From Bradyrhizobium algeriense (lineage in GTDB: Bacteria; Pseudomonadota; Alphaproteobacteria; Rhizobiales; Xanthobacteraceae): 64,000 bases of DNA. A program made the position numbers and the translations under genes. Below the pieces are notes generated by a model that worked only from the letters and a program-made list of their open reading frames with translations, searched no databases and was not told the origin of the DNA. The DNA lies in the NCBI RefSeq assembly GCF_036924595.1, contig NZ_JAZHRV010000001.1:7839501-7903500 (forward strand), in the 5' to 3' direction. Below are positions 12,928 through 59,269 of this stretch, one piece after another; the stretch's first letter is position 1, and every line of letters begins with the position of its first letter.

Positions 12928-13176
12928 GTGGAGCGTGGCCGCGACATCGTCGCCGTTGAGCGTTGTACCGCTGATCCCGTGCCGAATTGTGATCTCGTCG
13001 TCGATGCCACCGGCAGGATCGTGCTCCCAGGGCTTGTCAATGCCCATACGCATCTCTGCATGGTGTTCGGCCGCACGATCGGTCCGGAACGCCGCCTCCT
13101 CGAGTGGCTCGATCTCCTGATGCCGATGATGGCCGCGATGGACGAGGAGGCGCTCTACGTCGCGGAACTGGATTGA
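12928..13176 (+). pseudogene. Amidohydrolase (cyclic-amidine/chlorohydrolase type), N-terminal fragment
   Basis: About 80 codons read ERGRDIVAVERCTADPVPNC, then DLVVDATGRIVLPGLVNAHTHL, the N-terminal beta-sandwich and first HxH metal site of ATZ/TRZ-type amidohydrolases, and then WLDLLMPMMAAMDEEALYVA. The frame stops right after, about 350 residues too early, where it meets the 3' end of the opposite-strand ada/alkA-like gene. It lies directly behind the amidase remnant, so it was probably the next gene of the liv-DUF2848-amidase operon. It cannot be active. Confidence 0.75.
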
Positions 13177-14798
13177 TCGCCTAGCGCTTTTCGGACCTCA
13201 TCGCTAAATTCGGGCGACAAGATCGCGCCAGCGGATTGGATACTAGGCTCAAGCTCGCTTACAAGTTCCTTTGCATGCGTTTTTCTTGAGCCTCCTTTCG
13301 GTTTACGTTCCTGGGCGGCTCGATCAGCCCAAGACGACCATAGATGCTGTGCGGCATAGGCGCGCCATGGCCGCCAAGCCTCCGCGCGCGTTAGCAACTC
13401 TGTTGGAGTTGGGCGCCGCCCCGTCGAGTCCTCCATCGCGCGCATCAGGCCGATATCTGCTGCCGGAAAGGCATCCGGTTCACGAAGCTCACGCATCGCG
13501 ATGTACTGGGCTGTCCATTCGCCGACACCAGCGAGGGATCGAAGCTGCACGATCGCTTCGTCGAGACTTCGACGCGCACCAAAGATCTTGGGGTCGGCGA
13601 CAACGGCATTGGCGAGGGCCGCCAGCGCGGCAATCCGCTTCCTTGGCATTCCAAGATGCGAAAGATCCGATTCCGCAATCCGCTTCGGACGCGGGAACAC
13701 ATGGGTCAGTTCGGGAAAGTCGGCATGCCTCGTCTTCAGCGGCTTACCGTGAGCGGCAACCAGCTTGCCCGCAAGCGTGATTCCGGCAGTCACGGTAACT
13801 TGTTGGCCGAGCAGGGCCCGCACCGCAAGCTCAAAGCCGTCCCAAGCGCCTGGCACACGCAGCCCCGGCCGCGCCTTAATCATGGCCGCGAGCGCGGGGT
13901 CCTTGGTGAGATGCGACTCGATCGCCGCGGGATCAGCAGCCAAATCGAACACGCGCCGCAAGCGCGCGATGATAGCGGGAAGCGCTGACAGTTTCGGAAA
14001 CCTGACCATGGCCTCAAGCGCATTCTCGCCGGTGGGCCGAACCACGATGATCCCTTGCGCTCCGTCGAGTTCGATGGCGCGGGCATAGGCGTCTCCAGCG
14101 ACCGTCTCAATCCCGGGAATGCTGCGGAGCCGCAGAAACCCCAGCATGGCCGACCAGTCATAGGGCGGACGATAACGCAGGCGGATCGTCACGCTGCCAG
14201 CAGCGTCCAAGGATACGTCAGGGGCCCTGCTTCGACGCAAAGCGCTTGGCGCGCGGCCGTACAATTGTTGGAACGTCTGATTGAACCGGCGCACACTGCC
14301 AAAACCAGAGGCGAGCGCCACTTCGGTCATCGGGAGGCTGGTTTCGTGGATCAGTTGCTTCGCCAATAGCACGCGGCGCGTTTGGGCTACGGTTATGGGC
14401 GATGCCCCCAAATGCCGGCGGAACAGGCGACGCAGCTGACGCTCGCCAACGCCCAAGCGATCGGCAAGGGCTACGACGTCTCCATCGTCCATAGCCCCTC
14501 CCTCGATGAGGGAGAGGGCGCGCGACACTGTGCTGGATGTTCCTTGCCAGGCGGCAAGGTCGGGCGCGGCCTCGGGCCGGCATCGAAGGCACGGACGAAA
14601 TCCCGCCTCGTGGGCGGACGCCGCCGTCGAATAGAATGTTACGTTTTCCTTTTTTGGAACGCGCGCCGGACAGATCGGCCGACAATAGATGCCGGTCGTC
14701 TTAACGCCGATAAAGAGCCGGCCATCGAACCGAACATCCCGGGTCGAGATCGCTCGGTAACAGGCGTCATGGTTAAGATCCATGAGACTCAATCTCAT
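13155..14798 (-). CDS. Ada/AraC/AlkA fusion: DNA-3-methyladenine glycosylase 2 family protein
   Basis: This 547-residue fusion repairs alkylated DNA. Residues 10-80 form an Ada zinc domain with Cys39, Cys43, Cys70 and Cys73 (GIYCRPICPAR, PCLRCRPE). Residues about 95-190 form an AraC-type HTH (LPMTEVALASGFGSVRRFNQ). Residues about 200-310 are the AlkA N domain. Residues about 320-490 are an HhH-GPD glycosylase with RALLGQQVTVTAG and the catalytic Asp in FPAADIGL. GGAG precedes ATG 14798; ATG 14783 is an alternative. The last codons run into a truncated amidohydrolase, so the C-terminal tail is probably altered at a recombination junction, without touching the catalytic domain. Confidence 0.9.
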   Translation of the reverse strand: MRLSLMDLNHDACYRAISTRDVRFDGRLFIGVKTTGIYCRPICPARVPKKENVTFYSTAASAHEAGFRPCLRCRPEAAPDLAAWQGTSSTVSRALSLIEGGAMDDGDVVALADRLGVGERQLRRLFRRHLGASPITVAQTRRVLLAKQLIHETSLPMTEVALASGFGSVRRFNQTFQQLYGRAPSALRRSRAPDVSLDAAGSVTIRLRYRPPYDWSAMLGFLRLRSIPGIETVAGDAYARAIELDGAQGIIVVRPTGENALEAMVRFPKLSALPAIIARLRRVFDLAADPAAIESHLTKDPALAAMIKARPGLRVPGAWDGFELAVRALLGQQVTVTAGITLAGKLVAAHGKPLKTRHADFPELTHVFPRPKRIAESDLSHLGMPRKRIAALAALANAVVADPKIFGARRSLDEAIVQLRSLAGVGEWTAQYIAMRELREPDAFPAADIGLMRAMEDSTGRRPTPTELLTRAEAWRPWRAYAAQHLWSSWADRAAQERKPKGGSRKTHAKELVSELEPSIQSAGAILSPEFSDEVRKALGDQSSSAT

Positions 14799-45984: not shown

Positions 45985-48900
45985 ATGGATTGCCCGAGCT
46001 GCGGCAGAGTCAACCCAGCGGATAACAAGGTCTGCGGCGACTGCGGTGCTCCGCTATTGTTGCGCTGCCATGCGTGCGGAGCCGACAACCCGTTGGGTAA
46101 AAAGTACTGTGGCGACTGCGGCGCAGCGCTCATGCCGACGGGAGCTGCGCGAGTATCGGCAGCGGCCCGAGTGTCGACGTCCACCGTGGTGCGGGCCACG
46201 GAGCCCCCTACTTTCTCATCCGCGCCAGGCTCTTCCGCCGAGCGCCGCCAACTCACGGTGATGTTCTGCGATCTCGTCGGTTCGACGGCGCTTGCGACAA
46301 AGCTCGACCCGGAAGATCTCCGGGAGGTCATCGCCGAATACCGCGATGGCGTGGCGGCCATCGTTCGCAAGTACGGTGGCACCATCAGCCGCTACATCGG
46401 CGATGGTATGTTGATCCTGTTCGGTCATCCATCAGCGCGCGAGGACGATCCCGAGAGCGCGGTGCGCGCCGCGCTTGAGATTGCCGCAGCCCGGCACGCG
46501 CCGGGCGCCCCACCGGATATTGAGCTGCGAGTTCGCCTCGGGCTCGCGACTGGTCTCGTTATCGTGGGGGACCTCATCGGCAGTGAGGCCGCCGAGCCGC
46601 AGGCCGTGCTCGGCGAAACGCCGAACCTGGCCGCCCGACTGCAAGCGCTCGCCGAGCCCGACGGCGTGGTAATCGCCGAGGACACGCGGCGGCTCATCGG
46701 CGGGCTCTTTGATTACGAGGATCTCGGCGTGGTGCCGCTGAAGGGCTTCGCAGCGCCGGTGCGCGCCTGGCGGGTGCTGCGCGAGGGAAAGGCGGAAAGC
46801 CGCTTCGAGGCATTCCACGCGGCAGCGCTCACGCCGTTGGTTGGGCGCGAGGAGGAGCTCGAACTGCTGGTGCAGCATTGGCAGCGTGCCAGGACGGGCA
46901 CTGGCCAGGTAGTGTTGCTGGTGGGGGAGCCGGGGATTGGCAAATCGCGCCTCGTCGCGGCTCTCCAGGAGCGCATTGCGGGCGAGCCACACACCCGCTT
47001 GCGTTATTTCTGCTCGCCGCATCATCAGGACAGCGCGCTGTATCCCTTCATTGCTCAGCTGCAGCGCACCGTCGATTTCGAGCGTGACGACACGCCGGAG
47101 CACAGGCTCGACAAGCTGCAAGCGGTGCTATCCCCGGCATTGCCGCCCGACGAGGACATCGCAATCCTCGCCGAGCTGCTATCGATCCCGACCGGCAAGC
47201 GATTTCCGCCGATTGCCCTTACGCCACAGCGAAAGAAAGAGAAGACCTTCGATGCCCTGTTTCGGCAGCTTGGGGGTCTGGCCCGGCGACATCCAATCAT
47301 GATGGTCTTCGAGGACGCGCAATGGATCGATCCGAGCTCGCGCGAATTGCTGGACCGGACCATCGATCGGGAGACGGCACTGCCGGTGCTGTCACTGATC
47401 ACTTTCCGTCCCGAGTTTCAGTCCGGATGGACCGGAAAATCGCATGTCAGCACGTTGGTTCTGAACCGTCTTGATCATACGGCGGGCGCCGCGCTGATCC
47501 GGAGCATGACTGGCGACCGGGGACTGCCGCCCGAGCTCGTCACTGAGATCGCCGAGCGAACGGACGGGGTGCCGCTGTTCGTCGAGGAACTGACCAAGGC
47601 TGTGCTCGAAGCGGGTGCTGCCGGGGTCGAGCGCGCCATCTCCACTGCGCCGCTCCCGGGGCTCGCGGTCCCGCCCACCTTGCACGCTTCGCTGATGGCG
47701 AGGCTCGACCATATCGGCAAGGTCGCCAAGGAGGTCGCACAAGTCGGCGCGGCCATCGGCCGGGAGTTCTCCTACGATCTGCTCGCCGCCGCCGCGCGGC
47801 GGAGCGAGAACGAGCTGCGATCAGCGTTAGACCGCCTGATAGATACCGGGTTGGTGTTTCGGCGCGGCGAACCACCCGAGGCCAGTTTCCTCTTTAAACA
47901 CGCGTTGGTGCAGGACGCGGCATACGGCACGCTGCTGCGCGGCCAGCGTCGTGAGCTGCACGCCCGAATCGCTGGCGCGCTGGAGGAGAAGCTCGCGACA
48001 ACGGCCGAAGCGCAACCCGAGATCCTCGCGCATCATTTTGGAAATGCCGGTCTGATCGAGAAGGCGGTTTCCTATTGGCAGGAGGCCGGCGAACGTTCCA
48101 AAGCGCGCTCAGCCACGGCAGAAGCGATCAGACAAATGCGAAAGGCGCTCGATCTGTTGTCCCATCTACCGGACACCGCCGAGAGCCAGCGCACCGAACT
48201 CCAGCTTCAGCTCGCAATCGGCGGCGCGCTGATCGCCGCGAAGGGCCATGCGGCCGAAGAGACCGGAAAGTCCTACGCGCGGGCGCGTCGTCTCTGCGAG
48301 TTGCTGAACGACACGCCAAATCTGCTCAAGACGTTGTGGGGCGAATTCGTTCATCACCACGTGCGCGCCGAGACGAAACTATCGCATCGCGCCGCCGAAG
48401 AACTGCTCGAGTTGGCCGGACGACAAAACGACAGGGCCGCCTTAGTCGCCGGTCATCGGGCGGTCGGCGATAGCTGGCTGCATCGCGGAGAGTTGCGTTT
48501 GGCGCGCGCACATCTCGAGCAGGGGCTCGCACTTTACGACCCCACGCAGCATCGATCTCTGACGCTTCTGTTCGCCGAGAATGCCCGCGTGGCGACGCTC
48601 TCCTTCCTATCGCTGACGCTTGGGCTTCTAGGTTTCTTCGATCAGGCCCGGGCGCAGAGCAGGGAAGCCCTGGCAGAGGCGCGCGAGCTGTCGCACCCCA
48701 TCAGCCTCGCATTCGCGTTAAGCGTCGCCTGCCGGCTGTATTTCGTGCTCGACGATCCACGGACTGTGCGCCTGCTCGCGGATGAGCTCATCGCGCTTAC
48801 TACCGAGCAGGGCTTTGCCTTCTTTCTCGCGATGGGAACCGCGTATCGCGGCTGGACCATGGTCGAGGCCGGGGAATCCGACGCCGGGACCGATCTGCTG

Positions 48901-49353
48901 CGGCTCGGGATCGAGAGATTCCAAGCATCCGGCGCGGCGTGGACACTTCCGTTCTACCTCGCGCAGCTTGCCACGGCGCACGTGAAGACGGGAGCGCCCG
49001 AAGACGGGCTCGGCCGACTAATTGAGGCGTTGTCTCTGACCGAGAAATCGGGCGTGCGATGGTTCGAGGCGGAACTGCGATGCCGTCGAGGCCAACTGCT
49101 GCGGACCACCCGCCAAAACGCCGAGGCCGAGGCGGAGGCCAACTTTCGCCATGCCATCGCGATCGCGCGGCAGCAGGAGGCGAAGCTTTGGGAACTCCGC
49201 TCCGCCATAAGCCTCGCCCGGCTCTGGTGCGACCAGGACAAGCGCGATGAAGCACGCGGTCTCCTCGCGCAGGTCTATGGCTGGTTCACCGAGGGCTTCG
49301 ATACACCCGACTTGAAAAATGCGGGAGCCTTACTCGACGAACTAAGCGCATAG
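45985..49353 (+). CDS. Adenylate/guanylate cyclase-AAA-TPR signalling protein with N-terminal zinc ribbons
   Basis: This 1122-residue soluble protein starts with two zinc-ribbon halves (CPSCGRVNPADNKVCGDCG and CHACGADNPLGKKYCGDCG). A class III cyclase domain is at about 88-260: LTVMFCDLVGST with metal Asp96 and ISRYIGDGMLILFG with Asp140. An AAA/STAND ATPase with Walker A GEPGIGKSR (about 314-322) and Walker B MMVFEDAQWID follows. The last 450 residues are TPR-like helices (ARRLCELLNDTPNLLKTLWG, AHLEQGLALYD). The layout is a known multi-domain class in rhizobia and mycobacteria, thought to sense a ligand through the TPR part. It stands alone. Confidence 0.9.
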   Translation: MDCPSCGRVNPADNKVCGDCGAPLLLRCHACGADNPLGKKYCGDCGAALMPTGAARVSAAARVSTSTVVRATEPPTFSSAPGSSAERRQLTVMFCDLVGSTALATKLDPEDLREVIAEYRDGVAAIVRKYGGTISRYIGDGMLILFGHPSAREDDPESAVRAALEIAAARHAPGAPPDIELRVRLGLATGLVIVGDLIGSEAAEPQAVLGETPNLAARLQALAEPDGVVIAEDTRRLIGGLFDYEDLGVVPLKGFAAPVRAWRVLREGKAESRFEAFHAAALTPLVGREEELELLVQHWQRARTGTGQVVLLVGEPGIGKSRLVAALQERIAGEPHTRLRYFCSPHHQDSALYPFIAQLQRTVDFERDDTPEHRLDKLQAVLSPALPPDEDIAILAELLSIPTGKRFPPIALTPQRKKEKTFDALFRQLGGLARRHPIMMVFEDAQWIDPSSRELLDRTIDRETALPVLSLITFRPEFQSGWTGKSHVSTLVLNRLDHTAGAALIRSMTGDRGLPPELVTEIAERTDGVPLFVEELTKAVLEAGAAGVERAISTAPLPGLAVPPTLHASLMARLDHIGKVAKEVAQVGAAIGREFSYDLLAAAARRSENELRSALDRLIDTGLVFRRGEPPEASFLFKHALVQDAAYGTLLRGQRRELHARIAGALEEKLATTAEAQPEILAHHFGNAGLIEKAVSYWQEAGERSKARSATAEAIRQMRKALDLLSHLPDTAESQRTELQLQLAIGGALIAAKGHAAEETGKSYARARRLCELLNDTPNLLKTLWGEFVHHHVRAETKLSHRAAEELLELAGRQNDRAALVAGHRAVGDSWLHRGELRLARAHLEQGLALYDPTQHRSLTLLFAENARVATLSFLSLTLGLLGFFDQARAQSREALAEARELSHPISLAFALSVACRLYFVLDDPRTVRLLADELIALTTEQGFAFFLAMGTAYRGWTMVEAGESDAGTDLLRLGIERFQASGAAWTLPFYLAQLATAHVKTGAPEDGLGRLIEALSLTEKSGVRWFEAELRCRRGQLLRTTRQNAEAEAEANFRHAIAIARQQEAKLWELRSAISLARLWCDQDKRDEARGLLAQVYGWFTEGFDTPDLKNAGALLDELSA

Positions 49354-51410: not shown

Positions 51411-51610
51411 TGGCCCGACTGACAGCACGTAATGGCGCATGTGAGACATCCCGGCGTACAATAACGATGTCTGTTTATAGGGGTAGACCAGAAGTCATCG
51501 GTACGCGGCAAAACCGACGCGAATGATGTGGTGGACGACGCCCGCTCCCGGCATCGAATGTGCCAAAGGGTGATTGTTCAACAACGAATCACCGGAGGGG
51601 GGTCGTCCAC

Positions 51611-52642
51611 ATGCAGGTTAGCACCATCGGCGTTGATCTCGCCAAGAACGTGTTCCAAGTGCACGGCGTGGATAGTGCGGGCAAGGTCGTCATCACTCGT
51701 CAGTTGCGGCGCAAGCAGGTCATCGACTTCTTTAGCAAGATTCCCCCTTGCCTGGTCGGCATGGAAGCCTGCGGAACCGCTCATCATTGGGCGCGTGAAG
51801 TCTCCAAGCTCGGTCACACCGTGCGCCTGATGCCGCCGAGCTACGTGAAGGGCTATGTCAAACGGTCGAAAAACGATGCTGCCGACGCAGCCGCCATCTG
51901 TGAGGCCGTGACACGCCCATCGATGCGGTTCGTGCCGATCAAGTCGGCCGATCAGCAAGCCTTGCTGATGTTGCATCGAACGCGGGATCTTTTAATCCGT
52001 CAGCGCACGCAGCTGATCAATGCGCTCCGAGCCCATCTTGCCGAGTTCGGCCTCGTTGCGGCGACGGGACGCGAAGGTCTCGCGCAGCTTGCCGCGATCA
52101 TCACGGACGAGAGTAATCGCGAAGCTCTTCCATCTGCGATGAAACAGGCATTGCAGGCCCTTGTCGATCAACTCGCTGCTCTGGAATTGCAGATCGGGAC
52201 CCTGGATCGCGCCATTCACGCCCATCATCGTGCCAATGATATGAGCTGTCGCCTCGAGACCGTGCCCGGGATAGGCGTGATCGGGGCCACGGCCATCGCT
52301 TCCACTGTCACAGACCCGAGTGACTTCAAATCCGGTCGGGATTTTGCAGCATGGATCGGACTTGTTCCGCGGCAGCACTCGACGGGGGGCAAGGAGCGGC
52401 TCGGCGGCATCTCCAAGCAGGGAGATCGCTATCTCCGACGGTTGCTCGTCATCGGTGCAACAGCCGTTGTTCGACACGCCCGGCAGCAGCCGCAAAAGCA
52501 CCCCTGGATCATCAGGCTGCTGGCCAAGAAGCCGGCCAAGCTCGTCGCCGTTGCCGTTGCCAACAAGATGGCGCGCATCGCTTGGGCGATCATGGCCAAG
52601 GGAGGATACTATCGAGCGCCGGAGCTTGCTGCAGCCGCCTGA
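51611..52642 (+). CDS. IS110-family transposase
   Basis: This 343-residue DEDD transposase/recombinase has N-terminal STIGVDLAKNVFQVHGVD (first Asp), CLVGMEACGTAHHWARE (Glu), KRSKNDAADAAAICEA (Asp pair), and a C-terminal transposase_20 domain with LETVPGIGVIGATAIAST, FAAWIGLVPRQHSTGGKERL and GISKQGDRYLRRLL (Ser region). The frame is complete. ATG 51611 follows a GGAGGGG site. The non-coding flanks on either side (about 51520-51610 and 52643-52790) probably belong to the element; GCGAATGAT occurs near both ends. Confidence 0.92.
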   Translation: MQVSTIGVDLAKNVFQVHGVDSAGKVVITRQLRRKQVIDFFSKIPPCLVGMEACGTAHHWAREVSKLGHTVRLMPPSYVKGYVKRSKNDAADAAAICEAVTRPSMRFVPIKSADQQALLMLHRTRDLLIRQRTQLINALRAHLAEFGLVAATGREGLAQLAAIITDESNREALPSAMKQALQALVDQLAALELQIGTLDRAIHAHHRANDMSCRLETVPGIGVIGATAIASTVTDPSDFKSGRDFAAWIGLVPRQHSTGGKERLGGISKQGDRYLRRLLVIGATAVVRHARQQPQKHPWIIRLLAKKPAKLVAVAVANKMARIAWAIMAKGGYYRAPELAAAA

Positions 52643-53186
52643 AGAGGCTTGGCAATGGGAGCCTGAGGCGACGGCGGAGCAAGACAACCGAATTGCGAGG
52701 GTGATGATGGCGTGATGCGAAACGGTCGAGCCGTCGATTGGGACAACCCGCTTCTGGGTCATGGGCGTCAAAGCCCGTGCGAATGATTGGGACCCGATCC
52801 GCGGACTACATCAGGGCCAGCGGTCATGGTGCCGCGCAAACAGGCCGGACACATGACTTGTACCCGACCGCAAGCCGAACGTCAGATTCTTCTTGCAACG
52901 CGGGCGTCGTCCACACATGACCCATATGAGACATCTGCCGACGCGCAACATCACCTGTCGTGCAACACTTGCGGACCCCAGAGTGACGGCGACAGGTATG
53001 TGGAGCATGGGCCGTGCATGTACCGTCATGTGGCCTCCGATAGCGCCTCATCGGTCCGCTGAAGAGCTTGAGGCGCGTGCGCAACAAGCACGCCCACCTT
53101 CGCCCGACGTTCCATCAAGCGGGATTCTTTCAGGTGAGGTTTGTGGCTGAACAGTTCCATCATCCGCGAGGCATAGCGTTCCCGCT
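52643..53186. other. IS110 right flank and repeat debris
   Basis: About 540 bases without a supported gene. The first 150 bases are likely the 3' non-coding end of the IS110 element. After that come short pieces that resemble the dispersed repeat (CACATGACCC, ATATGAGACATCTGC). Open frames here on both strands have no family resemblance. Confidence 0.4.
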
Positions 53187-53446: not shown

Positions 53447-53487
53447 ACTGATTAGGGTTTACCGAAGCCTACAAGTGGGACATAGCC

Positions 53488-56016
53488 ATGCCCACGCCTA
53501 TCAAACACGTCTTTGTGTTGATGATGGAAAATCGGTCCTTCGACCACATGCTGGGGTTCTCTGGCATCACTGGGACCGATGCCGAGACTGGGCAACCAGC
53601 AACCATCAACGGGCTGAATAGCACCGAATCGAACAGCTTCAAGGGCCGCGCGTACCCTGTCACCGGGGGCGCGGCCGACCGCATAAATCCCGGTCCAGGT
53701 CACGACTTCGGCCACGTCCTCGAGCAGCTGTGCGGTGAAGGCGTTAGGTACCCGATTTGGGGTGCTCCAAATGCCGTAGGCGATCCAGCGGGATACGTGC
53801 TCGATGACACCCAGCATGTGGTCTATCGCGGGAACGACAACCACATCCATGAACTGTGGTGGTCGGACTCTGAGGGCTGGCGCCACGGCGGTCTGACCAG
53901 CGCAACCGGCGCTCCAAATGCCGCAGGCGATCCAGCGGGATACGTGCTCGGCGGTACCCAGCATGTGGTCTATCGCGGGAACGACAACCACATCCATGAA
54001 CTGTGGTGGTCGGACTCTGAGGGCTGGGGCCGCGGCGACCTGACCAGCGCAACCGGCGCTCCAAATGCCGCAGGCGATCCAGCGGGATACGTGCTCGGTG
54101 GCACCCAGCATGTGGTCTATCGCGGGAGCGACAACCACATCCATGAACTGTCGTGGTCGGTCTCTGAGGGCTGGGGCCGCGGCGACCTGACCAGCGCAAC
54201 CGGCGCTCCAAATGCCGCAGGCGATCCAGCGGGATACGTGCTCGGTGGCACCCAGCATGTGGTCTATCGCGGGAGCGACAACCACATCCATGAACTCTGG
54301 TGGGATCAGGGCTGGGGCCGCGGCGACCTGACCAGCGCAACCGGCGCTCCAAATGCCGCAGGCGATCCAGCGGGATACGTGCTCGGTGGCACCCAGCATG
54401 TGGTCTATCGCGGGAGCGACAACCACATCCATGAACTCTGGTGGGATCAGGGCTGGGGCCGCGGCGACCTGACCAGCGCAACCGGCGCTCCAAATGCCGC
54501 AGGCGATCCAGCGGGATACGTGCTCGGTGGCACCCAGCATGTGGTCTATCGCGGGAGCGACAACCACATCCATGAACTCTGGTGGGATCAGGGCTGGGGC
54601 CGCGGCGACCTGACCAGCGCAACCGGCGCTCCAAATGCCGCAGGCGATCCAGCGGGATACGTGCTCGGTGGCACCCAGCATGTGGTCTATCGCGGAAGCG
54701 GCAACCACATCCATGAACTGTCGTGGTCGGACTCTGGGGGCTGGCGCCACGGCGACCTGACGAGCGCAATCGCCCGTGAATACCCCCCGATCAACTGCTC
54801 CGGCTACGCGTCGTCGTACGCGAAGCGAAAAGAAGAATTCTTGCCTCTATTCGACGGTCCACGGGTGGGCCCTGAGGGGGCCGGGAACGTGATGAAGTGC
54901 TTCACTCCGGACCAGTTGCCGGTGTTGAACGCGCTGGCGCGGGAGTTCGTGGTCTGCGACCGTTGGTTCTCGTCGCTGCCAGGGCCGACCGAGCCCAACA
55001 GAATGTTTATGTATGCCGAGACGTCCGGTGACTTCGACTGCAATATGGGAGATTTCGAACGTCCTTCACAGGTGGTGATCCCAGACGGCGGATTAAAGTT
55101 CCCACGCGGGACCGTGTTCGGACTTCTCAAGCAGGCTGGCGTGAAGTACCGCATCTATGGGGGGGACAGTTTTCCGACAGCTGCCTGGCTCGATGGCGTC
55201 AGCGTGGTCTATGACATTAAGGATTTCGAAGACTTTGCGGAAGATGTAAACGATCCATCTTTTGATGCTGGCTATGTCCACATTGAGCCGGACTACGACG
55301 CCATATTCGGTTTCCGGGGCGGCAACTCGCAGCACCCCCATGGCAGCGGTAGCGTTGCTGCAGGCGAGCGCCTCATCAAAGCGGTTTACGAGGCTGTTCG
55401 TAGCTCGCCCGTGTGGGAGAAAAGTCTTCTGATCATCACCTGGGACGAACATGGTGGCTTCTACGACCATGTCATTCCACCCTCGGCCCAAGGAACAGGA
55501 GAGCGTGGACGCGAACGCGGTTTTACTTTCGATCAGCTAGGACCGCGGGTTCCGGCGGTGGTCGTGTCTCCGCTCATCCCTCGCAACTTGATCGACCATA
55601 GAGTGTATGATCACACCGCGATCCCCGCGACTCTCCGCCGGGTGTTTGCGCTCCCGTCGCTTGGGGGGCGAGATGGCATCACTGGCGGTGTGGATCACCT
55701 CGCCGGGAGCGTGGCCCGAACCGACGCGCCGATGAGGCTGCCAAACGCTGCCATAATTGGCGCCCCAGCACCGGCACCGAGAAACGCTCCCCCCCATCCT
55801 ACCGCGCTCATCTCCAAGGATCTTGAGGGCGTAGCAGCCTCAACGCTCAACTCCGCGCTCGTCCAACACCTCGAGGTCACTCCCCCCGAACAACATGCCG
55901 TCATACGTGCCCGTGTTAAGCTGATCAGGACCCACGCCGATGCGTTCGCATACCTGGAGGAAGTGAAGCGGCTGGTGGATGCGAAGCGGGTCGAGGCGGG
56001 CCTCGTCCACGCTTGA
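53488..56016 (+). CDS. Phosphoesterase (phospholipase C/acid phosphatase family) with inserted seven-repeat propeller-like domain
   Basis: This 842-residue protein starts as a PF04185-type phosphoesterase: KHVFVLMMENRSFDHMLGFS carries the N-terminal metal/nucleophile region. Residues 92-428 are then seven consecutive repeats of 47-49 residues (GAPNAAGDPAGYVLGGTQHV, VYRGSDNHIHELWWD, GWGRGDLTSAT). After these the phosphoesterase resumes: FVVCDRWFSSLPGPTEPNRM, GVKYRIYGGDSFPTAAWL, LLIITWDEHGGFYDHVIPP (metal site) and RVPAVVVSPLIPRNLIDHRV. Without the repeats the size is about 505 residues, normal for the family. No signal peptide is evident. The repeats resemble lectin-like beta-propeller blades and could target the enzyme to a glycan surface (inference). 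Confidence 0.88.
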   Translation: MPTPIKHVFVLMMENRSFDHMLGFSGITGTDAETGQPATINGLNSTESNSFKGRAYPVTGGAADRINPGPGHDFGHVLEQLCGEGVRYPIWGAPNAVGDPAGYVLDDTQHVVYRGNDNHIHELWWSDSEGWRHGGLTSATGAPNAAGDPAGYVLGGTQHVVYRGNDNHIHELWWSDSEGWGRGDLTSATGAPNAAGDPAGYVLGGTQHVVYRGSDNHIHELSWSVSEGWGRGDLTSATGAPNAAGDPAGYVLGGTQHVVYRGSDNHIHELWWDQGWGRGDLTSATGAPNAAGDPAGYVLGGTQHVVYRGSDNHIHELWWDQGWGRGDLTSATGAPNAAGDPAGYVLGGTQHVVYRGSDNHIHELWWDQGWGRGDLTSATGAPNAAGDPAGYVLGGTQHVVYRGSGNHIHELSWSDSGGWRHGDLTSAIAREYPPINCSGYASSYAKRKEEFLPLFDGPRVGPEGAGNVMKCFTPDQLPVLNALAREFVVCDRWFSSLPGPTEPNRMFMYAETSGDFDCNMGDFERPSQVVIPDGGLKFPRGTVFGLLKQAGVKYRIYGGDSFPTAAWLDGVSVVYDIKDFEDFAEDVNDPSFDAGYVHIEPDYDAIFGFRGGNSQHPHGSGSVAAGERLIKAVYEAVRSSPVWEKSLLIITWDEHGGFYDHVIPPSAQGTGERGRERGFTFDQLGPRVPAVVVSPLIPRNLIDHRVYDHTAIPATLRRVFALPSLGGRDGITGGVDHLAGSVARTDAPMRLPNAAIIGAPAPAPRNAPPHPTALISKDLEGVAASTLNSALVQHLEVTPPEQHAVIRARVKLIRTHADAFAYLEEVKRLVDAKRVEAGLVHA
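53761..54771 (+). repeat. Seven tandem coding repeats (147/141 bp) within the phosphoesterase gene
   Basis: Units begin at 53761, 53908, 54055, 54202, 54343, 54484 and 54625. Units 1-3 and 7 are 147 bp and units 4-6 are 141 bp (two codons shorter at WWDQGW). Most units differ by only a few bases, so they arose by recent tandem duplication. The antisense strand of this block gives a long but meaningless open frame. Confidence 0.95.
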
Positions 56017-57129: not shown

Positions 57130-59088
57130 TCACTCCGGCAGTCCGGCTGTTCGGAGGCCATCGTCGAATTTCTTCCCCCATATAACAAGACGCGCAAGGA
57201 TACGCGGATTATAGGACGGCCACGATGCGTGAGCCCATCGGGCACGCCATTGAGACATGGTCCGAATAGGGGCATTGTCGTTCGCCAAGTAGCGCTGCAT
57301 TGATGCGCGTGCCTCGTCCTCCTTGCCTGCCAAGGCAAGCAGCACAGACCGCACCAATCCCAAAACCAGAAACTCGGGAGCAGCAGCTTCAGCCCGCTCA
57401 ATAGATACAAGCGCCTGCTCGTAGTCCTCTAACATACCGAAGGCGCGCGCCTTGGCGAAATGAAACATTGGTCCGACGAGCCCGGGGTGGTGTGGGCTGA
57501 TCCGCATCGCCCTGTCGGCATAGGCGATGGCCTGTTCCGGCTGAGCGATATTAGTGTAGGCCAAGGGCAATCCAACCAGAATGCTGTTTGGGGCTAAAAT
57601 CAGGGCGCGCTCATATGAATCGATCGCCTCCCGAGGCCGCCCCGCCAACAATAGAGCATCGCCTTTTGCGGCGTGAGCTATGTGATAACCCGGGTCGATC
57701 TTTACCGCCAAGGACGCAAGTTCGTCAGCACGACGAAGATCAGCTTGACGATCGGGTGCATCAAAAAAGGCAACGCGCTGGGTGAACTTGAATGTCAAAT
57801 GGGACAGCGCGCGAACATTCTCAGGGTCGATCTCCAACGCTTGCTCACAGAGGCGAAAGGCCGAATCGCGTTCCGGCGTCCAAACCGCTCGATTAACCGC
57901 AGCGGAGCAGCGCCAAGCAAGATCGTCCGCATTGGGATTGGCCGTGCGAGTTTGTGCCTGCTTGGCTCTCTCTTCAGTCAATTTGATACCGATCGCAAAC
58001 GCGATGCGCGTTACAATAGCATCTTGCATCTGCAAGAGGTCGGAGCGGTTCTCATCAAACCGATCAGCCCAGAGATGCGCGTCGTTCTCGGTATCTATGA
58101 GTTGGGCATTCACACGCAGCCGGTCACCACTCGGCTGTACGCTGCCTTCTAGCGCATAGCGCACGCCGAGATCCTTGCCGATCTGCCGAACATTGACTGG
58201 CTTGCCCTTGTAAGTGAAAGCGGTTGACCGGGAGATGACGAAGCTGTTCCGAAAACGCGAGAACCCGGTGCTCAGTTCGTCGCTGATGACGTCTGCCAGA
58301 TAGTCTTGGCTCGCATCGCCGGATAGGTTGGCAAAGGGCAGGACGACGATGGAGAAGCGCTCAGTGGGCTTTGCCAGCTGGTCTGGCAACTGTACGGGCG
58401 CGCGGCCGAGGTGGAGGTACAGTGCCGCGCCGACAGCGCTGGCGATCAGTACAACTGCGGCTCCGATCGCCCTGACGCGTGTGCTCCACCTGGCGCGAAG
58501 TACAGGCGGCGCCGCATTGCGCGGCTGTGAGAGCTTGGCGGGCCGCGCATCATCGAGAGCGACTCGGAAGACCCGCACTGGCCGTGCGATGTTCTTGAGT
58601 TGCCGTTCGCCTGCATCCTCGAAAGTGACATCGAACTTGCCCCGAACCTGCCGGTGCGCGTCATCGGAGATACAAATGCCACCTGGCTTCGCCAATCCCT
58701 CCAGACGTGCCGCCACATTCACGCCGTCGCCGAAAATGTCACCTCGATCGATGATTATGTCGCCGACATTGATGCCCATGCGGAACTCGATGCGCTTCTC
58801 GTCCGGCACCCCGGCATTGCGCTCGGCCATCCCGCACTGGACATCAACCGCGCAGCGCACTGCATCCACCACGCTGCTAAACTCTGCGAGCATTCCGTCC
58901 CCAGTGTTCTTGACGACCCGGCCACGGTGTTCGGCAACCTTAGGATCGACAAGAGCGCGCAGATGGGCCTGAAGCTGGACGTGCGTGCCCTCTTCGTCCA
59001 CGCCGGTCAGCCGGCTGTAGCCAGCCACATCGGCTGCCAGTATGGCAGCAAGCCGACGTTCGATGCGGTCCTGCCCCGACGCAACCAT
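57130..59088 (-). CDS. Adenylate/guanylate cyclase-TolB-like-TPR protein
   Basis: This 652-residue protein has a class III cyclase domain (RRLAAILAADVAGYSRL with Asp20, VVKNTGDGMLAEF with Asp64, GDIFGDGVNVAARLEG). A membrane segment follows at about 230-252 (AIGAAVVLIASAVGAALYLH). Next is a TolB-N-like region (SIVVLPFANLSGDASQDYLA, GVRYALEGSVQPSGDRLRVN) and C-terminal TPRs (AIDSYERALILAPNSILVGL). GGAGG lies 8 bases before ATG 59088. This architecture is frequent in rhizobia, where many copies exist per genome. A 3' fragment of a related gene is at 29545-30188. Confidence 0.9.
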   Translation of the reverse strand: MVASGQDRIERRLAAILAADVAGYSRLTGVDEEGTHVQLQAHLRALVDPKVAEHRGRVVKNTGDGMLAEFSSVVDAVRCAVDVQCGMAERNAGVPDEKRIEFRMGINVGDIIIDRGDIFGDGVNVAARLEGLAKPGGICISDDAHRQVRGKFDVTFEDAGERQLKNIARPVRVFRVALDDARPAKLSQPRNAAPPVLRARWSTRVRAIGAAVVLIASAVGAALYLHLGRAPVQLPDQLAKPTERFSIVVLPFANLSGDASQDYLADVISDELSTGFSRFRNSFVISRSTAFTYKGKPVNVRQIGKDLGVRYALEGSVQPSGDRLRVNAQLIDTENDAHLWADRFDENRSDLLQMQDAIVTRIAFAIGIKLTEERAKQAQTRTANPNADDLAWRCSAAVNRAVWTPERDSAFRLCEQALEIDPENVRALSHLTFKFTQRVAFFDAPDRQADLRRADELASLAVKIDPGYHIAHAAKGDALLLAGRPREAIDSYERALILAPNSILVGLPLAYTNIAQPEQAIAYADRAMRISPHHPGLVGPMFHFAKARAFGMLEDYEQALVSIERAEAAAPEFLVLGLVRSVLLALAGKEDEARASMQRYLANDNAPIRTMSQWRARWAHASWPSYNPRILARLVIWGKKFDDGLRTAGLPE

Positions 59089-59269
59089 GGCGCTGACCTC
59101 CAGCCTCCTTATACACCTAATTGCGGGCCTGTGGATGGCACAGCCGGTAGGTCTCCCCGGTGAGCCGCACCGCCAAAGGTCTGATCGCGGGGATGTCCGG
59201 TCATGACCCTGGCTGTGTGACTGCGCCCCCGCCACGTCGCCAAGCTCGCGAACGCGTCTATGCTTCCGC

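Follow-up and report, generated by a model that had tools for sequence, protein, structure and literature searches.

Plant non-specific phospholipase C4 (NPC4; 8hav) and fungal RePLC (8k3g) are phosphoesterases of the PF04185 family. The seven-bladed PLL and PHL proteins of Photorhabdus are lectins with H and P sugar-binding sites and conserved tryptophans, the PLLs being stand-alone ones. A propeller nested in an enzyme is already known from prolyl oligopeptidase (S9), in which a seven-bladed ring without canonical closure separates a short N-terminal part from the remainder of the catalytic domain, to which two linkers connect it (PMC3778648). Highly repetitive propellers with near-identical blades, amplified from single blades, are described in PMC9218822, in the text of which the word "insert" does not occur. 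We analysed a window of 64,000 nucleotides of Bradyrhizobium algeriense (bases 7839501-7903500 of one 8,102,604-base contig), which contains a gene for a PF04185 phosphoesterase whose catalytic domain is interrupted by seven near-identical repeats, predicted to form a PLL-like seven-bladed propeller within the enzyme core. NPC4 and RePLC, in contrast, carry no large insert: the stretch that corresponds to it is short in the alignment of either protein. An unsplit catalytic domain is the usual PF04185 architecture, although it does not define the family, and the present protein departs from it through a 343-residue insert.

The gene is a single open frame (53488-56016, 842 codons) without a stop or frameshift. 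The PF04185 profile matches it in two stretches of the same frame, which are 1,137 bp apart and correspond to model positions 1-83 (genome 7893000-7893236) and 96-356 (genome 7894374-7895156), with a total of 204.7 bits for a curated cut-off of 23 bits. An earlier note, made from the sequence alone, had described a phosphoesterase catalytic domain broken by seven repeats, and both the two in-frame stretches and Tandem Repeats Finder (TRF) confirm it. The break that it placed after about 90 residues is indeed there, but its limits had to be corrected: the last native residue is approximately 88, and the first after the insert approximately 432. An assembly or frameshift artefact was thought unlikely, with a single 8.10-Mb contig, one open frame and seven in-frame units.

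With regard to the catalytic site, residues E14, N15, H72, T501, H616, D653 and E654 correspond to E23, N24, H79, T158, H264, D299 and E300 of NPC4. Of 8,000 candidates scored in a homology search with the core, 2,905 passed at E 0.001; the best 120 of these (the query and 119 homologues) were listed, and alignment A3 comprises the query and 55 homologues chosen from these 119. The catalytic columns are invariant in all 56 rows of A3, and the query keeps 101 of the 102 near-invariant core positions, the median row likewise departing at one. The catalytic motifs are therefore kept on both sides of the insert, including the metal-site motifs that had been reported as intact after it. In the full-length structure prediction, which the earlier note had proposed as a check, the core is modelled with the PF04185 fold; the disruption of the core that would have contradicted the note is not seen, although the insert has low confidence in that model. 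Taken together, these results support a PF04185 phosphoesterase with intact catalytic residues and core fold, in which the alpha/beta-hydrolase serine peptidase core of prolyl oligopeptidase is absent. Its enzymatic activity and its substrate are presumed. The scores for TIGR03396 (phosphatidylcholine-phospholipase C equivalog; 108.7 bits, cut-off 580.25) and TIGR03397 (Burkholderia acid phosphatase; 81 bits, cut-off 362.75) are both below the cut-offs.

The repeat array spans residues 93-429, with repeats starting at residues 93, 142, 191, 240, 287, 334 and 381, and their lengths (49, 49, 49, 47, 47, 47 and 49 residues) are within the 47-49 residues announced earlier. TRF reports 7.0 copies with a period of 141 and 95% matches (53764-54769). 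The DNA identity between blades is 90.8-100%, so the array is not due to chance; the outer blades 1 and 7 are the most divergent. The model of the repeat region shows a seven-bladed propeller with 28 predicted strands and has the W-motif propeller fold of the PLL/PHL type; the solved structures nearest to the predicted ring are lectins, in line with the lectin-type propeller that had been proposed, and the PLL/PHL lectins share 21-26% identity with the ring. The PF07938 (Fungal_lectin) profile matches between the two PF04185 stretches, with 31.3 bits for the whole protein and 48.2 bits for the repeat region (cut-off 25.3), and in a profile search this gene was the sole match to either family in its genome. 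PF07938 comprises fungal fucose lectins (AAL, FleA, SapL1), the triad glutamate of which is, by alignment, kept in the query; according to PMC8352872, these lectins are six-bladed and their fucose triad is Arg-Glu-Trp. As the query has seven repeats and 28 predicted strands, an AAL-type six-bladed ring was rejected and the protein was not filed as a PF07938 member. The repeat region alone also exceeds the cut-off of PF03984 (DUF346; 25.2 for 22). A further hit to PF00355 (Rieske; 24.9 for 20.3), in which no stretch passes, was taken as chance. Two long antisense open reading frames overlie the array (53452-54750 and 53744-54769) and would seem to be side effects of a repeat with few stop codons. 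The coordinates of the gene and its parts are given in Table 1.

Table 1. Coordinates, within the window, of the phosphoesterase gene and its parts.
Feature	Position	Strand	Extent	Characteristics and basis
Whole gene	53488..56016	+	842 aa	PF04185 phosphoesterase with predicted nested propeller
Catalytic domain, N-terminal part	53488..53751	+	Residues 1-88	Strand 1 with ENRSFDH, catalytic His72, helix 74-82 after His72; basis: PF04185 model 1-83, block means of 87-97 for the predicted local distance difference test (pLDDT), helix limits, aligned homologues
Insert	53752..54780	+	Residues 89-431 (343 residues)	Takes the place of a loop that has 5 residues in 53 of the 55 relatives in A3
Blade 1	53764..53910	+	49 aa	
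Blade 2	53911..54057	+	49 aa	
Blade 3	54058..54204	+	49 aa	
Blade 4	54205..54345	+	47 aa	DNA identical to blades 5 and 6
Blade 5	54346..54486	+	47 aa	
Blade 6	54487..54627	+	47 aa	
Blade 7	54628..54774	+	49 aa	
Catalytic domain, C-terminal part, with C-terminal helices	54781..56013	+	Residues 432-842	TEPNR with Thr501, His616, DEHGGFYDH with Asp653-Glu654; basis: PF04185 model 96-356

The insertion site is occupied by a short loop in the relatives. In A3, the two relatives that do not have five residues between the positions of query residues 88 and 432 have four and six. When the query was cut after residue 88 and resumed at residue 425, 117 of the 119 listed homologues had -3 to 0 extra residues, and the remaining two had +15 and +20, their C-side match starting only at query residue 466; none of the 119 had more than 20. 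The search for other PF04185 proteins with repeats at the same site, suggested in the earlier note, was thus carried out without finding any among the relatives examined. Within the taxonomic family, PF04185 is present in 56 of 296 genomes, including that of the query, and by hand count the largest in-frame gap between PF04185 pieces after the 1,137 bp of the query is 453 bp. A genome scan recovered both core parts at all 46 loci, with length differences of -39 to +27 residues and no blade match at any of them. Across 397 order-level and 398 phylum-level genomes (overlapping sets), no genome but the query's own had both the N-terminal part and the blades at E 1e-20. Matches of some kind were found in 44 of 146 genomes of the genus, the own genome included, which was the only one with blades together with the core; in two others (G007 and G047), the blade region was matched weakly (25%), with the matches lying in separate frames.

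A search with the junction (residues 56-142), which covered 27 candidates, gave five proteins, of which the query alone has PF04185; with so few candidates, this is a weak negative. None of 137 plasmid records with a match covered 80% of the query in one place. Blades are internal in six of 120 blade proteins, the query included; in the other five (P0135, P0209, P0215, P0219 and P0226), Pfam gave no catalytic domain split by blades, although P0219, without any Pfam match, and P0226, with a partial profile, are not fully excluded as split enzymes. As these searches rest on shared words, best-match lists and sampled genomes, they show the arrangement to be rare among the relatives examined, in which no other PF04185 enzyme built with a nested seven-bladed ring was found, but they do not establish its uniqueness. 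The literature, covered as titles and abstract starts with few subscription papers, yielded no PF04185 enzyme or phospholipase C bearing a propeller or a lectin domain and no characterised homologue of the same design, both weak negatives; PMC6355987 concerns other phosphatases. As phrased, however, the earlier statement that no described enzyme with this insertion topology was known is not supported, in view of prolyl oligopeptidase (PMC3778648).

Based on these observations, we propose that the protein is a soluble NPC/phospholipase C-like phosphoesterase with a complete PLL-like propeller of seven blades in the loop after helix 2. The catalytic acid His72 is at the start of this helix, and 16 residues beyond His72 the chain passes from the core into the insert, which would hold the ring near the active site, although the relative placement of the ring and the core is itself conjectural. 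Through its seven repeated pockets, the ring would most probably bind glycans or glycoconjugates at high avidity and so anchor the enzyme to a surface covered with glycans or glycolipids. There the enzyme could cleave phosphodiester or phosphomonoester groups by a Thr-nucleophile mechanism such as that proposed for NPC4. We lean slightly towards this glycan tether as a whole.

Several points weigh against it. Sugar binding by the ring is presumed, and in an ungapped 50-column match to AAL the arginine that we take to belong to the fucose triad is aligned with a histidine, the glutamate being kept, so fucose specificity should not be assumed. The architecture was seen in a single genome. No rows were aligned to the insert in the full-length model, where it is mostly below pLDDT 50, and the VIA list for this model is taken up by the core and uninformative on the insert; the ring model was built from relatives whose rings are mostly terminal. 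A mixed alignment (A1) was set aside because seven lectin rows were wrongly placed on the core. The counterpart of NPC4 Asp76 is Gly69, as it is Gly in 30 of the 56 rows of A3; the Asp76 to Ala mutant of NPC4 has lower activity (NPC4 paper). Finally, a signal peptide cannot be encoded: only 12 open in-frame codons precede the start (854 versus 842) and the first core strand of the structure model starts at residue 7, which leaves no room for one. Export of the enzyme is thus presumptive, and a role at the surface would need a non-classical route, as PLL lectins seem to use. Nevertheless, the missing signal peptide does not exclude a surface tether, since PLL lectins have no recognised signal and PLL2 and PLL3 are reported in an extracellular fraction (PMC12203525).

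A different role of the ring would be to dock a protein partner or to form oligomers, as propellers often mediate protein contacts and relatives of the enzyme bear other kinds of blade-like repeats. Tetramers and dimers are also known among the PLL and PHL lectins (PMC6943638); nevertheless, the best-matching solved folds are lectins and near-identical blades would suit a repeated small ligand, which makes such a platform quite improbable. The ring could also act as a regulatory lid, limiting the access of substrates to the cleft without binding sugars, as in prolyl oligopeptidase. The nesting is the same, the two linkers are close to the active-site helix and the insertion follows the catalytic acid by 16 residues; moreover, the query has an open blade phase without outer-strand closure, comparable to the lack of canonical closure in prolyl oligopeptidase (PMC3778648). 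The core of prolyl oligopeptidase has an unrelated alpha/beta hydrolase fold, and the likeness to the query would be one of working only. The blades of prolyl oligopeptidase are old and diverged, not near-identical. We regard a lid as unlikely.

The near identity of the blades (91-100% in DNA, three being identical), the single genome and an IS110 element about 0.55 kb upstream would also fit a recent accident, in which the chance capture of a blade or an array was followed by minisatellite-like amplification; the enzyme would tolerate the result or be failing, and the copy number would vary between strains. Against this stand the 842 codons without a stop or frameshift, the core positions kept as in the median row, and the in-frame blade number of seven, which is the usual closing number of the relatives (87 of 120 blade proteins); an accident thus appears improbable.

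The query blades were compared within a set of 750 blades from 120 proteins, comprising the query and its 119 listed blade homologues. Each of them resembles its sisters (80.9% for the lowest pair, median 87.5%) more than any blade from another protein, for which the best values are 74.5-78.7%; amplification or homogenisation of the array therefore took place in this lineage. In internal blade identity, the query ranks 11th of 118 proteins. A blade source elsewhere in the genome was rejected: blade 1 DNA has seven matches, which are the seven blades of this gene. In a motif test, the first strand comes first and the fourth last in the query array, whereas 60 of 119 relatives have the outermost strand at the start and the third at the end, an order in which an outer strand locks the ring; 39 more end after the third without the starting motif. 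As 17 of 119 relatives share the open phase by this crude test, its value as proof of in-place amplification is weakened and it is suggestive only. The propeller may have been born inside the enzyme, a single blade having entered the five-residue loop and been amplified in place to seven, the copy number at which the ring closes, with the enzyme intact, but this origin is tentative and rather doubtful. If true, it would be a nascent nested domain, a snapshot of how nested propellers like that of prolyl oligopeptidase could arise. Given the blade identity, the order of capture, amplification and closure could still be readable from sister strains.

In a midpoint-rooted tree of 54 rows, the query is sister to P0002, which has no such repeats (support 100/100), next to P0003 with two repeats of another kind (96/90), and its group of 26 rows includes 12 such repeat-bearing proteins. 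Among the 119 listed homologues, several of which come from short contigs and may be incomplete, 13 carry N-terminal "WSSVSEG" repeats and eight VCBS-like repeats (PF13517), with 2-7 copies each, 73 have other N-terminal extensions of at least 60 residues and 25 have none, the query being the 26th. The WSSVSEG repeats, of approximately 49 residues (two copies in P0003, six in P0004, seven in P0006, four in P0010, four in P0016 and seven in P0032), are probably propeller blades, judging by their length and tryptophans; outside the core, no Pfam match over the cut-off was found in P0004, P0006 or P0032, nor did PDB sequences contain a solved relative of the P0032 repeats at E 0.01. By the motif used, the same-genus homologue L005 has six N-terminal VCBS-like repeats. 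P0004, P0006, P0032, P0029 and L005 belong to the same enzyme clade and, like the query, have 2-7 tandem repeats, but theirs are of other families and precede the catalytic domain, so the nested arrangement is an exception. The clade has taken on at least three kinds of tandem blade-like repeats, two N-terminal to the core and one within it, a hint that a multivalent domain next to this active site may repeatedly be of advantage. No relic of an N-terminal repeat domain was found upstream: a tblastn search of the window (E 1e-3) with 11 selected homologues produced 25 matches, of which the only one not wholly inside the gene runs 12 bases past its end.

With regard to the surroundings, an IS110-family element (approximately 51450-52934, transposase frame 51560-52642) ends about 0.55 kb upstream of the gene and has two other copies in the genome with 97-98% identity. 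A 47-76 bp stretch at approximately 51451-51527 has 11 further partial genome matches (76-81% identity), six of them at 7.904-7.944 Mb just past the window, and looks like a dispersed repeat. The region is flanked by two class III adenylate cyclase fusions, one with a zinc ribbon, the cyclase and AAA_16 (45985-49353, +) and the other with the cyclase and TPR (57130-59235, -). Further away, a fusion of Ada zinc-binding, AraC HTH and AlkA (13155-14798, -) is, by its domains, a DNA alkylation repair regulator-enzyme.
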